58,367 bases of DNA from an uncultured SAR86 cluster bacterium (GTDB lineage: Bacteria; Pseudomonadota; Gammaproteobacteria; Magnimaribacterales; AG-339-G14): positions 96,530 through 154,896 of the forward strand of contig CABYXE010000002.1 in assembly GCA_902522825.1 (NCBI GenBank), in the 5' to 3' direction. A program made the position numbers and the translations under genes. Under the pieces are notes generated by a model, which was given only the letters and a program-made list of their open reading frames with translations, was not told the DNA's origin and searched no databases. This document shows, piece after piece, positions 1,254-9,102 of this stretch. How positions within the stretch are numbered: the first letter of the stretch is position 1; each line of letters starts with the position of its first letter.

Positions 1254-1871
1254 ATGAAAATAGGCGTCATTGATTATGGTGCGAGTAATATTTTTTCAGT
1301 AGATAGGGCGCTTAAAAGTCTTGGAGCCTCAACCAAAATAATTAAGACTCCAAAAGACTTTGAAAAAATTGATAAATTAGTATTTCCAGGACAAGGCTCC
1401 ATGGGAGCTTGTCTTAAAAAATTATCAGATAATGATTTAAGAGACCCTTTAATAAATGCAATTGAAAATTTACCTTTTCTAGGAATTTGTTTAGGCTTGC
1501 AAATTCTTTTTTCTGAAAGCGAAGAAAGCCAAGGAGCGAAAGGTTTAGGTATCTTTAAAGAAAGAATATGTAAATTTAGTGAGTTTAAAGATAAAAAAAT
1601 TAAAATTCCTCATATGGGTTGGAATCAAGTTGAGTTTATTCAAAATCATTTTTTATGGAACGATTTAGAATCTAATAATAATTTTTATTTCGTACATTCA
1701 TTTGTTTCAAAAAATATCAGTGAAAATGATGCCTTTTCCAAAACCTTTCATGGAGAGTTTTTCGACTCTGCTGTGGCTAAAGACAATATTTTTGCAACCC
1801 AATTTCACCCTGAAAAAAGTGGCAAGCCCGGACTAAAGCTGCTTCAAAATTTTTTAGACTGGAATATTTAA
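1254..1871 (+). CDS. hisH: Imidazole glycerol phosphate synthase glutaminase subunit HisH
   Basis: Class I glutamine amidotransferase that releases ammonia from glutamine and passes it to HisF for imidazole ring closure. Length 205 aa is typical. The nucleophile Cys79 sits in LGICLG, the oxyanion strand in FPGQGS (about 44-49), and the His-Glu pair in FHPEKSG near residue 186. Only one base separates its stop from hisA, so translation is likely coupled. HisH-HisA-HisF order is the common one. Confidence 0.96.
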   Translation: MKIGVIDYGASNIFSVDRALKSLGASTKIIKTPKDFEKIDKLVFPGQGSMGACLKKLSDNDLRDPLINAIENLPFLGICLGLQILFSESEESQGAKGLGIFKERICKFSEFKDKKIKIPHMGWNQVEFIQNHFLWNDLESNNNFYFVHSFVSKNISENDAFSKTFHGEFFDSAVAKDNIFATQFHPEKSGKPGLKLLQNFLDWNI

Positions 1872-4008: not shown

Positions 4009-4416
4009 ATGCCTTATTTTGTTCAATTTTTGATAGATAACTGGTTTATAGTCATACCACTTATTGTATCGATATCAGTCTTCCTGAGAGTTGAAAATAC
4101 GAGAAAAGCATCTATTTTAGATGCGCAACAAGTTATATTTTACTTAAATAGAAAAGACGCAGTCTTGATAGATATTAGAAATAGTAAAGAATTTTCAGAG
4201 GGTAAAATTAGCCAAGCTAATCATGTTGGACCAGATATAGATTTATGTAAAAAAGAGATTAGCAAATCTTTAGAAAAGCCAATAATTATAATTTGTCAGA
4301 ATGGAAATTATTCACTCAGGATGGCAGCAGATTTAAAAAAAGAAAATATAAACGTTTTTACTATGAAAGGAGGAATTAACTCTTGGAAAAGCGAAAATCT
4401 ACCCTTGATCTCTTAA
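4009..4416 (+). CDS. Membrane-anchored rhodanese-like protein (YibN type)
   Basis: 135 aa. One N-terminal transmembrane segment (about residues 10-28) is followed by a single rhodanese domain. The sulfur-carrying Cys96 is in CQNGNYS, and the domain ends with the usual GGINSW element. The combination matches the YibN family. In enterobacteria yibN follows a phosphoglycerate mutase gene; here it faces gpmA. Substrate not determinable; sulfurtransfer is inferred from the intact loop Cys. The last four bases overlap the 3' end of ntrC. Confidence 0.85.
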   Translation: MPYFVQFLIDNWFIVIPLIVSISVFLRVENTRKASILDAQQVIFYLNRKDAVLIDIRNSKEFSEGKISQANHVGPDIDLCKKEISKSLEKPIIIICQNGNYSLRMAADLKKENINVFTMKGGINSWKSENLPLIS

Positions 4417-5810
4417 AGATCTAATTCATTCATTTTCCTCGCTAATGTATTTCTGCCCCATCCGAGAAGATTAGCGGCTTCACTTTTTTTTCCTTTAGTA
4501 GCTTTCATGGCAACTTTAATCATAGTTTTTTCAAAAACCGGTATCGTTGAATTAAGAATATGATCATCTCCATTTGAGAGTCTCTCTGTAGCCCAAACTT
4601 CAAGTAAATCATTCCAACTCAATTCAGGACCTTTCTTCTGAATTAAAAGATCATTAGGCAGATCACTAATATTTATCTCCTGTGCAGAAGACAAAACTGC
4701 TAGTGAATGACATAGGTTTTGAAGCTGTAAAACATTTCCAGGCCATATCAAATTAGAAAAAAGATCAATCACTTCATCGGTTAAAATTTTTGTTTCTGAT
4801 TTAGTTTCTTTAGAAAATTTTTCAAAAAAGTAATTAGCAAGTAATGGAATGTCTTCTTTTCTATCTCTTAAAGCAGGCATTGGTATTCTAATAACATTAA
4901 GTCTATGAAAAAGATCTTCTCTAAAAGCTCCAATTTTTACCTTTTCATTTAAATTTTGGTTAGTAGCTGCAATTATTCTCACATCTACAGTTATTGGTTC
5001 GCTACCCCCAATCCTGTAGAACTCCCCACTTGATAATACTCTTAAAATTCTTGTCTGAGTTTCATAAGGCATGTCGCCGATTTCATCTAAAAACAACGTT
5101 GCTTTATCAGCCTGTTCAAATCTTCCTATTTTCTTTTTCTCTGCTCCAGTGAAAGCACCTTTTTCATAACCAAAAAGTTCAGACTCTAATAACTCAATTG
5201 GTATATCTGCCATATTAAGAGAAATAAGTTTTTTTTCTGACCTTTCGCTGTGCTCATAAATTGCTCTAGCTACTAATTCTTTACCCGTCCCCGACTCACC
5301 AACTAATAAAACAGTAGAATCAGAATGTGATAATTTTCCGATGGAATTGAACAAGTCTTGCATTGCTGGAGATTTACCAATGATTTTTCCTTTATCCAAA
5401 GTAATTTCATCTTCTTTGTTTCTTTTTTTTGATCTGAGTTTTCTCTCTTCTAAAGCTTTTGTTATTTTAGAAATGGCATCATTCAAGTCGAAAGGCTTAG
5501 CAATGTAATCCCATGCACCATTTTCAAAAGCGTCTACGGTGGTATCTAAATCTGAATGAGCAGTCATCATAATTACAGGAATATTAGAAAATTCATTCTT
5601 GAAAGTATCCAATAGGTCCATCCCGTCTCTTCCAGGCATTTTTAAATCAGTTAAGAGTACGTTTGGCTTATCAATGTCAAGCTGATTTACAACTTCGTTA
5701 CCGTCTTCAAAAACGGATACTTCAAAACCAGCATCAACCAAACCTTTTTCTAAAACAAATCTAATTGATTCATCATCGTCAGCAACCCATACTTTTTTTG
5801 ATTTAGACAT
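4413..5810 (-). CDS. ntrC: Nitrogen regulation response regulator NtrC
   Basis: Sigma-54-type enhancer-binding activator for nitrogen-scarcity genes. Receiver domain (1-120): acidic pocket DDD at 11-13, phospho-acceptor Asp55 in LTDLKMPG, Thr in MMTAHSD and Lys in AKPF. AAA+ domain (about 140-380): Walker A GESGTGKE, the sigma-54 contact loop GAFTGA, and Walker B FLDEIGD. C-terminal Fis-type helix-turn-helix (about 425-465) in KSEAANLLGWGRNTL. Length 465 is normal. Its start overlaps ntrB by eight bases. The intact GAFTGA loop implies that the organism keeps RpoN, although no clear -24/-12 promoter was found near glnA. Confidence 0.95.
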   Translation of the reverse strand: MSKSKKVWVADDDESIRFVLEKGLVDAGFEVSVFEDGNEVVNQLDIDKPNVLLTDLKMPGRDGMDLLDTFKNEFSNIPVIMMTAHSDLDTTVDAFENGAWDYIAKPFDLNDAISKITKALEERKLRSKKRNKEDEITLDKGKIIGKSPAMQDLFNSIGKLSHSDSTVLLVGESGTGKELVARAIYEHSERSEKKLISLNMADIPIELLESELFGYEKGAFTGAEKKKIGRFEQADKATLFLDEIGDMPYETQTRILRVLSSGEFYRIGGSEPITVDVRIIAATNQNLNEKVKIGAFREDLFHRLNVIRIPMPALRDRKEDIPLLANYFFEKFSKETKSETKILTDEVIDLFSNLIWPGNVLQLQNLCHSLAVLSSAQEINISDLPNDLLIQKKGPELSWNDLLEVWATERLSNGDDHILNSTIPVFEKTMIKVAMKATKGKKSEAANLLGWGRNTLARKMNELDL

Positions 5811-6894
5811 TTAATACCTCTGCATTTTTTGTTTTAAAGCTTTCGTCAGGAAAAGGAATTAAAATTGAAAAATTAGTTCCACTTTCGTCACTCGAACAAT
5901 CAATTGATCCGTGATGTTGATTTATTATTCCTTTTGCTATGGCAAGTCCAAGTCCAGAAGAAACTTTTTTAGTAGAAACTAAAGGGAAGAAAATAGAATC
6001 AATAAATTCTTCAGGAATACCTGGACCATTATCGATAAAATCTATTTCACAAGCAGTTTTATAAAATTTTCCATTGATAATAACTTCGGAGGCTACTCTC
6101 GTTCTTACCGTAATTTTTGTCCCAGTATTGGTTTTAATCATTGCTTCTACAGAGTTTCTAGTAAGGTTATAAAAAACTTGCATAATCAACGATGAATCAA
6201 TATTAACTAAAGGCAAACTTGGATCATAATCTCTTATAAAATTTACTTCTTTTCCATCTAACGAATTTATAAAGTCTGGCAATTTTTCCAAAACTATATG
6301 AATATTTTCTTTAGCTAAACTGAGTTGAAACTGTTTTTCAGAAACTTGATTTACAATGTTTGTAATTCGGTCTGATTCTCTTGAAATAATATTTAATAAT
6401 TCTTGGTTTTCTTTTGTTTTTAACTTATTTGATAACAATTGTGCAGCTCCTTTGATTCCACTAAGAGGATTTTTAATTTCGTGAGCTAATCCTTTTGAAA
6501 ATGCTGCTGTAACTACACCACCAGTAGATTTTCTTCTAGATTGTTTTTCTTGAATTTGCTTATCTGCATCAAAAAATTCAAAAACTATCGATTCGCTTTC
6601 TTCACCAAGATAGTAAGCAACAAAAGAGCATTTTTTTTTCAAACCCCCATCTAAGAAAAGAGTGGTTATATGTCTTTTGAGATAAGTCTTTTTTTCAAGA
6701 AGATCTAGTAATTCAAGATTATTAGTTGGCTTTTCAATAAAAACGTCATGAACTAATTTTCCTTCACATTTTTTGGAAGTAGTATTTAAAAAATTTTCTG
6801 CAGAATTATTTATAAATACGACTTTTAAATCCTTGTCAGTTATTAGTAACTTTGAGGAAATTTTCTGTAAAGCTGTTTCTAAAGATTTCTGCAT
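5803..6894 (-). CDS. ntrB: Nitrogen regulation sensor kinase/phosphatase NtrB
   Basis: Cytosolic histidine kinase that phosphorylates or dephosphorylates NtrC according to PII state. 363 aa with no membrane segment. N-terminal PAS domain (about 5-110), then the H-box GLAHEIKNPLSG with the phospho-His, N-box YNLTRNSVEAM, G1 DNGPGIP and G2 GLGLAIAKG. The PII protein is not in this window. The 132-base gap to the upstream glutamine synthetase holds only a 9-bp all-A/T inverted repeat (6929-6951), too weak to call a terminator, so ntrBC may be read through from the synthetase promoter as in enteric glnALG. Confidence 0.94.
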   Translation of the reverse strand: MQKSLETALQKISSKLLITDKDLKVVFINNSAENFLNTTSKKCEGKLVHDVFIEKPTNNLELLDLLEKKTYLKRHITTLFLDGGLKKKCSFVAYYLGEESESIVFEFFDADKQIQEKQSRRKSTGGVVTAAFSKGLAHEIKNPLSGIKGAAQLLSNKLKTKENQELLNIISRESDRITNIVNQVSEKQFQLSLAKENIHIVLEKLPDFINSLDGKEVNFIRDYDPSLPLVNIDSSLIMQVFYNLTRNSVEAMIKTNTGTKITVRTRVASEVIINGKFYKTACEIDFIDNGPGIPEEFIDSIFFPLVSTKKVSSGLGLAIAKGIINQHHGSIDCSSDESGTNFSILIPFPDESFKTKNAEVLNV

Positions 6895-7026: not shown

Positions 7027-8007
7027 TTACTCAGTTAATGTACCTACAATGTGAGAAAGAATTTTGTATGGATCTGCATTAGAAGCAGGTCTTCTATCTT
7101 CCAAGTAGCCATTCCAATCATGTTCCACAGTATAAACTGGGATACGTATACTAGCTCCTCTGTCACTAACTCCATATGAGAACTCAGTAATCTTTTGAGT
7201 TTCATGAAGACCAGTAAGTCTCATATCATTATCTGATCCGTAAGCAGCAATACCTTCATCATGAACTTCACCTAATTTTTCACACATAGATTTAAAAAGC
7301 TCTTCAGAACCGCTAGATCGCATTGCTTCATTAGAAAAATTGCTGTGCATTCCAGAACCATTCCAATCTCCTGTTTTAGGCTTTGGATGAATGTTAACTC
7401 CAACACCATACTCTTCAGCAATTTTAAAAAGAAGATATCTGCTTATCCATAGATCGTCAGCAGCTTTAATTCCTTTACCAAAACATTGATACTCCCATTG
7501 ACCAAGAGCAACTTCAGCATTGGTTCCAGTAAGGGTTATTCCAAGATCAAGGCATGCCTGAAGATGGGCATCAGAGATTTCTCTTCCGACAACGTTTCCT
7601 GCACCGACTCCGCAATAGTATTCTCCCTGTTCTCTCGGAGTTCCATCTTCCCATCCCAATGGCTCACCGGATTTTGGGTCTGTGAAAAAGAACTCTTGTT
7701 CAAATCCAAACCACCATTCATCTGTTACAACTTCAGCTGCAGCAGCTCTATAGTTTGAAGGGTGGGTAGTATGATCCGCAGCTTGGACTTGTGTAAGAAC
7801 TAAGTCGTGACCATTTGGGTTAGTATAAGTTTGAACTGGTAAAAGCAAGCAATCAGAACTTCCTCCTTCAGCTTGTTCGGTTGATGAACCGTCAAATGAC
7901 CAATCTGGAGCTGTTTCCTCATCAGTTGCTTTGACTTTACTTCTCATATTAGCTTCTGGTGTATAACCATCAAGCCATATATATTCGTATGTTTTGAAAT
8001 CTGCCAT
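7027..8007 (-). CDS. Glutamine synthetase, type II (eukaryotic-type)
   Basis: Condenses glutamate and ammonia with ATP to glutamine. The short length (326 aa) and motifs mark type GSII, not the roughly 470-aa GlnA usual in this class. They are DWSFDGSSTEQAEG near residue 36, GFEQEFFFTD (metal-binding Glu), KTGDWNGSGMHSN, LTGLHET, RGASIRIP, and EDRRPASNADPY close to the C-terminus. The adenylylation loop and Tyr of GlnA type I are absent, so control by GlnE is not expected. It is the first gene before ntrB-ntrC, in the position held by glnA in enterics. ATG start with TAGGAG seven bases upstream. Horizontal or ancient acquisition is possible; composition matches its neighbours. Confidence 0.95.
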   Translation of the reverse strand: MADFKTYEYIWLDGYTPEANMRSKVKATDEETAPDWSFDGSSTEQAEGGSSDCLLLPVQTYTNPNGHDLVLTQVQAADHTTHPSNYRAAAAEVVTDEWWFGFEQEFFFTDPKSGEPLGWEDGTPREQGEYYCGVGAGNVVGREISDAHLQACLDLGITLTGTNAEVALGQWEYQCFGKGIKAADDLWISRYLLFKIAEEYGVGVNIHPKPKTGDWNGSGMHSNFSNEAMRSSGSEELFKSMCEKLGEVHDEGIAAYGSDNDMRLTGLHETQKITEFSYGVSDRGASIRIPVYTVEHDWNGYLEDRRPASNADPYKILSHIVGTLTE

Positions 8008-8064
8008 AACTTTTCTCCTATTTAATTACAGTTTTTAAACGAAAAGTAATGTTATCAAAAAAAA

Positions 8065-8125
8065 TGCAACTAAATAGTGCAAAAATTGTACTATTTTAAG
8101 GCTATAAATGCACTATTTTATAGCA
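8065..8125 (-). promoter_or_regulatory. Three NtrC-like boxes at 22-bp spacing upstream of glutamine synthetase
   Basis: Three related 17-mers begin at 8065, 8087 and 8109, exactly 22 bp apart. On the + strand they read TGCAACTAAATAGTGCA (8065-8081), TGTACTATTTTAAGGCT (8087-8103) and TGCACTATTTTATAGCA (8109-8125). The first, read on the minus strand, is TGCACTATTTAGTTGCA, close to the known NtrC consensus TGCAC-N7-GTGCA. The distal box overlaps the yqiA stop codon and lies in the loop of an 8-bp inverted repeat (GCTATAAA/TTTATAGC, 8101-8124). The nearest box is 57 bases from the ATG. NtrC binding is inferred from sequence and from the downstream ntrBC. Confidence 0.6.
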
Positions 8126-8684
8126 AAAAATCTAATATTAAGGGTATTTTTTTCTCAAATTCTTTATATTCATGAGATCCATCTTTCTCCACACATAAAT
8201 TGCTATTTTTATAATAAGAAAGCGTTTTAAAATGATTTAACACTTCATCTTCAAGTTGAATTAAAGACAGATGATTTAGAGGATATTTCAATTTTTTTAT
8301 TTTTATTTTATGAAGGTATTCATACATATCTTCACTAAATAAATAGCTTTCATCAGAGTGATAATTTTGATGATTCCCAATCAAATCTTTCATATCTTTC
8401 AAATGATTAGGAACAACAGGGTTAATATTAATAGACTTTAGGTTGTAAGTATCTGCTATGTAAGTTGAATAGAAACCTCCTAAAGAACTTCCTATTAGAG
8501 AAACTTTAAAATCACAAGATTTAGCTAAACTTAAAATATTTTTTATAGCTTCTTTGGGAGAAACAGGCAAATCAGGAAAAAAAACTTTTATACCTGAACT
8601 AACTACTAATTTAGAATTTTTAAAAATTTTAGCTTTTTTTGAATTTGACGATGAATTAAATCCGTGAAGGTATATGATTTTCAA
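8118..8684 (-). CDS. yqiA: YqiA-like alpha/beta-hydrolase esterase
   Basis: Small serine esterase of the YqiA/UPF0227 family; the physiological substrate is unknown. It opens with IIYLHGFNSSSNSKKA, has the nucleophile elbow GSSLGG, a candidate Asp in LEDEV and the catalytic His in GSHEYKEFE. I choose a TTG at 8684 because it gives MKIIYLHGFNSS, like family members, and has GGAAGG just upstream. An alternative TTG at 8702 would add six residues. The start lies inside the end of yqiB. yqiB-yqiA adjacency is also found in enterics, where cpdA and parE are nearby; these are missing here. Confidence 0.85.
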   Translation of the reverse strand: MKIIYLHGFNSSSNSKKAKIFKNSKLVVSSGIKVFFPDLPVSPKEAIKNILSLAKSCDFKVSLIGSSLGGFYSTYIADTYNLKSININPVVPNHLKDMKDLIGNHQNYHSDESYLFSEDMYEYLHKIKIKKLKYPLNHLSLIQLEDEVLNHFKTLSYYKNSNLCVEKDGSHEYKEFEKKIPLILDFLL

Positions 8685-9102
8685 GCGACCTTCCAGATTC
8701 AATACATACTGTTAAAAATTTATTCAAAAAAGAATTCCATTGAAATTTTTCATCTTTGGTAAAGCCAAATTTCTTTTGGCTTGGAAAAATAGAAACCAAA
8801 CTTTGGTGAAATCCTTGAAAACGAATTACTTCGCACATTTTTGCTTCATGATATAGACGAATTTCTATTTCAATTTTTTTTGATAATTCGGCTGAAAAAG
8901 AAATTTTGATGTCTGAAGTAAATTTAGAAACGCGACTTAACGATATAAAAACCTTATTTACTTTTAAACTCCCAAGAGGTATTCCAAAAGAAAAGCTTTT
9001 CTCTTTTTCAAAATTAGATATTAATTTAGAAAATAAAAGATAATTTTTTTCACAAAAAAAATGGAATTCTTTTAATTCTATATACTTTTCTTTATTTTCC
9101 AT
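8656..9102 (-). CDS. yqiB: DUF1249 protein YqiB
   Basis: 148 aa, uncharacterised DUF1249 family (E. coli YqiB is about 140 aa). Family hallmarks are LYHEAKMCEVIRFQG in the middle and LNKFLTVCIESGRSLE near the C-terminus; the N-terminus carries the FCEKNYLLFSKLI helix. No signal peptide, membrane segment or catalytic motif is evident. Its position immediately before yqiA is conserved in gammaproteobacteria. Function unknown. Confidence 0.85.
   Translation of the reverse strand: MENKEKYIELKEFHFFCEKNYLLFSKLISNFEKEKSFSFGIPLGSLKVNKVFISLSRVSKFTSDIKISFSAELSKKIEIEIRLYHEAKMCEVIRFQGFHQSLVSIFPSQKKFGFTKDEKFQWNSFLNKFLTVCIESGRSLENHIPSRI

Follow-up and report, generated by a model that had tools for sequence, protein, structure and literature searches.

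The three palindromic boxes upstream of the glutamine synthetase gene of an uncultured SAR86 bacterium probably form an NtrC operator array at a promoter that would serve the housekeeping (sigma-70 type) polymerase and not the sigma-54 form. Across the bacterium's family, this array and an extended -10 element downstream of it keep a fixed register, and we infer that NtrC activates rather than represses the gene. SAR86 bacteria are abundant in the ocean, and a search of the full-text literature, with subscription papers outside its coverage, returned nothing relevant pairing SAR86 with NtrC or rpoN.

The boxes lie in a stretch of 58,367 nucleotides (the window) from a 1.11 Mb draft genome, 88.9% complete, whose nearest glnII loci are those of SAR86. 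The synthetase gene is followed by ntrB and ntrC, and in every SAR86 locus compared a yqiA-like gene precedes glnII. The features concerned, all on the minus strand, are as follows.

4413-5810, minus strand: ntrC, 465 aa (TIGR01818 above cut-off, and a residue table)
5803-6894, minus strand: ntrB, sensor kinase (NF008293, E=1e-68)
7027-8007, minus strand: glnII, glutamine synthetase type II (NF041605 GlnII, E=2e-107)
8049-8057, minus strand: predicted extended -10 element of housekeeping type, TGaTAACAT, with the start predicted near 8042
8065-8081, minus strand: putative proximal NtrC box (box 3), TGCAACTAAATAGTGCA, 12/15 core positions, centre about -31 from the predicted start
8087-8103, minus strand: putative middle NtrC box (box 2), TGTACTATTTTAAGGCT, 12/15 core positions, centre about -53
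8109-8125, minus strand: putative distal NtrC box (box 1), TGCACTATTTTATAGCA, 13/15 core positions, centre about -75
8118-8702, minus strand: yqiA-like esterase gene (NF008291, E=1e-37)

An earlier sequence-only reading had named the gene downstream of the boxes a glutamine synthetase, which is correct, with the refinement that the enzyme is of type II (GlnII); no second glutamine synthetase was found in the draft genome. As a separate observation, SAR86 GlnII is 88-91% identical to that of SAR11 (window 7027-8007; loci L003-L082), and a GlnII tree intermixes the SAR86 families f1 (the window's own) and f3 with SAR11, which suggests exchange of the gene between the two groups. By inference, family f1 resembles RedeBAC7D11 and its sister family, f2, the Magnimaribacteraceae of a published study (PMC11582366).

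Boxes were scored by their matches at the 15 core positions of GCACTAWWWTAGTGC. The three conserved boxes follow the NtrC palindrome GCAC-N7-GTGC (12-13/15 core positions) and are alone within 200 bp in scoring at least 12; the whole window holds four such sites. The three related 17-mers noticed from the letters do begin at 8065, 8087 and 8109, and a chance origin is ruled out by dinucleotide shuffling, as none of 20,000 shuffles held three sites of at least 12 (or at least 11) at 22+22 bp and 0/20,000 held evenly spaced triples of any period. The nearest box does lie 57 bases from the ATG, which begins at 8007, and the yqiA stop codon (8118-8120) falls inside the distal box, both as first described. 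The 22-bp phase, for which comparison with related genomes had been proposed as a check, is kept in 28 related loci, with spacings of 22/22 in genera g1, g2 and g3 and 22/21 in g4, while the distance of the array to the ATG varies among the 28. The TGCACTA half of box 3 is invariant in seven representatives.

The same reading had set the 22-bp period against the wider spacing of the enteric glnA enhancer, which is half right: sites 1 and 2 of Escherichia coli glnA are indeed 32 bp apart, but a spacing of about 22 bp also occurs at NtrC promoters. The right halves of the presumed weaker downstream sites of E. coli glnA are 21 and 23 bp apart (hand count), and spacings of 30+22 bp are frequent in SAR86 relatives that bear sigma-54. 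The window promoter resembles enteric glnAp2 in having palindromic NtrC boxes upstream of a glutamine synthetase gene with ntrBC downstream, and in the period of about 22 bp of the weaker E. coli sites. It differs in that glnAp2 is a sigma-54 promoter with a strong pair of sites at 32 bp, whereas here there is no sigma-54 and no -24/-12 element, the boxes are all centred no farther than about 75 bp from the predicted start, and the enzyme is of type II.

A scan of the genome returned 12 sites with at most three mismatches to the NtrC pattern, and none for a reversed control pattern. A perfect box precedes gltB, and a box with 15 of 17 matches, among the next best, precedes amtB. Since the best other sites in the genome precede these two genes, the three 17-mers before glnII are very likely real NtrC boxes; their conservation in related genomes and the coherence of the regulon (gltB, glnII and amtB) support the NtrC-like identity first proposed for them. 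Boxes of another regulator were set aside, as the best genome-wide matches lie at these same genes. In g1, all three genes have NtrC boxes at promoters without -24/-12 elements, and the gltB and amtB boxes are centred near -62 from the predicted sigma-70-like promoters TCGACA-N17-TAATAT and TTGCAT-N16-TAAAAT, respectively (hand count). A pair of boxes 22 bp apart stands near -42/-64 from TGnTAAAGT at g3 amtB (hand count), and the g4 amtB boxes are even closer to a TATAAT-like element than the proximal glnII box is to its own -10. No NtrC boxes were found before gltB and amtB of family f3 in the stretch scanned, so that a promoter switch is untraceable there. Separately, a conserved leader with repeated GTGATGCATATCACATGCATTAAAAGTGACGC precedes gltB (L138 at about 1335-1440, minus strand; L224-L229, L238, L239), with no Rfam match and no significant fold.

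The window's lineage has no detectable working sigma-54. A profile search of the window genome found no sigma-54 core-binding domain (PF04963), and thus the boxes cannot be an ordinary sigma-54 enhancer. The sole PF04552 match (residues 102-159 of 160) falls within an ORF of 75 aa which holds the RpoN box, leaves no room for region I and matches solved RpoN C-terminal domains (2o8k/2ahq, E=5e-8). This ORF, here called mini-RpoN, occupies the canonical rpoN place: it follows lptC-lptB and shares four bases with mgtE. In an order-wide survey of RpoN, all ten matches in f1 were open frames of 78-91 aa, compared with mostly 413-461 aa in f2 and f3, and none of the 40 f1 genomes held a full-length sigma-54. 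It is highly improbable that the window merely shows an ordinary NtrC-sigma-54 enhancer whose sigma-54 gene was missed in an incomplete draft, even with the intact GAFTGA loop of its NtrC: the rpoN place is assembled and holds the RpoN box only, the sensor-II Arg of NtrC is gone and the promoter has no TGGCA-N6-TTGC, and on the family-wide survey this possibility was rejected.

The mini gene is present in ten genomes, all of genera g1 and g2, and wherever a pair gave an estimate, dN was lower than dS, which was often saturated; we propose that it may be a leftover DNA-binding domain still under selection. In g4 (L162, L163), mgtE directly follows lptB, while in g3 and genome G128 convergent genes follow lptB and no RpoN box was found; the reading of these g3/G128 neighbours covers seven of ten lptB loci, with g4 outside it. 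The g3 genomes (L185-L190) gave no mgtE match anywhere, including after lptB.

At the glnII promoter itself, a motif TGnTA(n)3T lies exactly 11 bp downstream of box 3, with the TG, the TA and the final T present in 28/28 f1 loci. No -24/-12 element (TGGCA-N6-TTGC) is found at the window promoter, where the place reads TTGCATTTTTTTTGATA, matches to a leftover sigma-54 promoter in the window are at chance level, and no good -35 hexamer is seen. Family f1 carries TTGCA/TAGCA ... TGnTA(n)3T where the -24/-12 element stands in f3 relatives; the f3 genera g10, g14, g15 and g22, which have full sigma-54, show a canonical TGGCAT-N5-TTGC after the boxes, and a canonical element at glnII was seen only in relatives with full sigma-54. 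Box 3 occupies the position of the -24 region of g10 sigma-54 promoters, in exact register with the TGGCA of L021-type loci. Full sigma-54 does not always go with such an element: in f2 (L251-L263), sigma-54 is full, GAFTGA and the sensor-II Arg are kept, and glnII has NtrC boxes and TGnTA-type motifs without -24/-12, and f3 genus g6 (L029, L031, L042, L061) has full sigma-54 and no clear TGGCA-N6-TTGC at glnII. Because f2 keeps sigma-54 and yet has a TGnTA-type glnII promoter, the promoter change need not stem from the loss of sigma-54, and the idea that box 3 and the extended -10 grew directly from a -24/-12 element at that loss is weakened, despite the exact g10 register.

No glutamine riboswitch was found at the glnII promoter in the window. 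Glutamine riboswitches (RF01739) do precede glnII in five other loci (L043, L075, L077, L079 and L080), in tandem in four of the five (e.g. L075:4798-4921); these SAR86 loci have no ntrBC adjoining glnII and no detected sigma-54, and there the predicted riboswitches replace NtrC control by other means. The window's own genome also has a glutamine riboswitch at L141:1510-1646 (near C1:235720-235860), divergent in sequence and carrying a long insertion, about 0.35-0.5 kb downstream of a second amtB gene.

The sigma-54 machinery of NtrC decays in step with sigma-54, while the receiver and the checked HTH residues persist. The window NtrC keeps GAFTGA, Walker A and B, the Arg fingers, the receiver Asp, Thr and Lys and both HTH residues checked, and its sensor-II Arg is replaced by Leu. 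This Arg, in the GNVR motif, is kept in 16/16 f3 and 8/8 f2 loci read and is Leu in all 22 AAA+ NtrCs of f1; no variation was seen at the receiver residues, even in the form that lacks AAA+, or at the two HTH positions checked. At loci with full sigma-54 the loop reads GAFTGA or GSFTGA, and within f1 it is GAFTGA in the mini-RpoN genomes, GAFKGA in g3 and GAFAGA in L041 and G128. In g4, NtrC is a protein of 256 aa whose AAA+ domain was apparently cleanly deleted, in frame, and no AAA+ NtrC was found in that genus. In most cases, a change at the central Phe or Thr of GAFTGA does away with sigma-54 activation (PMC3162934). In g1-g3 the family has NtrC as its own sigma-54 activator; the one extra match comes from a genome with 3% contamination. 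The tree joins L041 to the GAFTGA-bearing g1 sequences as their sister and leaves g2 outside; as L041 thus branches inside the clade with mini-RpoN and GAFTGA, and G128 also has GAFAGA, the loop was lost independently at least two times. The mini gene and GAFTGA co-occur in 10/10 genomes where the mini gene was seen, and in f1 GAFTGA is retained only by genomes that carry mini-RpoN or in which the locus for it is unassembled. No mini gene was detected in G035 and G114, both with GAFTGA, but the mgtE match of G035 breaks off at residue 26, seemingly where a contig ends, and G114 gave no lptB or mgtE match; these two genomes, and likewise G105 (the L041 genome), carry no information on the rpoN locus.

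The sequence-only reading had also suggested that boxes so near the gene might act by repression or through another form of the polymerase. The polymerase half is well supported, given that no working sigma-54 is detectable and that the boxes abut a conserved extended -10. Repression appears rather unlikely: NtrC would then cover the -35 region of a housekeeping glnII promoter and exclude polymerase, as at the E. coli glnAp1 and governor sites. The proximal box centre near -31 would suit this, as would the still closer g4 amtB boxes and the resemblance of the 22-bp arrays to the weaker E. coli glnA sites, and E. coli NtrC does negatively regulate glnAp1 and binds governor sites of low affinity at glnAp2 (PMC3870243). 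However, phosphorylated NtrC silencing the sole glutamine synthetase found, under nitrogen limitation, makes little physiological sense, the hand-counted positions at g1 amtB/gltB and g3 amtB are classical for activators, and glnII offers no good -35 hexamer to cover.

The co-occurrence of mini-RpoN with GAFTGA raises a different possibility, which we regard as quite unlikely, that the mini protein is the working partner of the GAFTGA NtrC, binding DNA or the AAA+ loops while ATP binding by NtrC drives the housekeeping polymerase. The ten shared genomes fit it, as do the low dN, the independent loop losses and the states seen when an assembled rpoN place lacks the mini gene (GAFAGA in G128, GAFKGA in g3, no AAA+ found in g4); yet the mini protein is without region I, the known target of GAFTGA, no TGGCA stands at glnII where the protein exists, the independent events are few, and the two could have decayed jointly in lineages under relaxed selection. 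The broader proposal that a stand-alone RpoN-box protein of 75-91 aa, derived in place from sigma-54, became a non-sigma co-regulator acting with GAFTGA NtrC at housekeeping promoters, its loss making first GAFTGA and then the whole AAA+ domain dispensable, is in our view unlikely.

Under activation from a housekeeping promoter, the reading we prefer, NtrB would phosphorylate NtrC upon nitrogen limitation, and phosphorylated NtrC would fill the three-box array along one face of the helix. The proximal dimer would then replace the -35 element and recruit or hold polymerase at the extended -10, and the boxes before amtB and gltB would be read likewise. Several points count against this: box 3, at -31, stands closer to the -10 than is usual for class II (about -42), a placement that would fit a repressor as well, extended -10 motifs are easily met in A+T-rich DNA, the f2 and g6 loci combine full sigma-54 with no clear -24/-12, and GAFTGA is intact in the window NtrC.

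A comparable layout is known from the pho-box promoters of PhoB, where the activator box stands in for the -35 element and lies about 10 bp ahead of the -10. PhoB differs in its OmpR-type HTH and direct repeats, and for the window boxes the analogy extends to layout only. Regulators of the RegA/PrrA/ActR type consist of a receiver and a Fis-type HTH. The 256-aa NtrC of g4 has this layout, but it is derived from NtrC by apparent in-frame deletion and still lies beside ntrB and glnII. The NtrC proteins of Rhodobacter capsulatus and Caulobacter have no GAFTGA and work at sigma-70 promoters (PMC10274813), and f1 resembles them in having an NtrB-NtrC pair on nitrogen genes with a housekeeping polymerase, the latter predicted here. 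Their L1 loops carry deletions, whereas the f1 forms range from an intact GAFTGA, by way of GAFAGA/GAFKGA, to a protein with its AAA+ domain entirely deleted; the sigma-54 contact loop is damaged in R. capsulatus NtrC and lost in g3, g4 and L041/G128, but intact in the window. Unlike the R. capsulatus type, f1 has lost the sensor-II Arg throughout, together with all or most of sigma-54. These findings bear on the conversion of enhancer-dependent promoters to ordinary ones in streamlined genomes, and on the role of the AAA+ domain and of GAFTGA without sigma-54.
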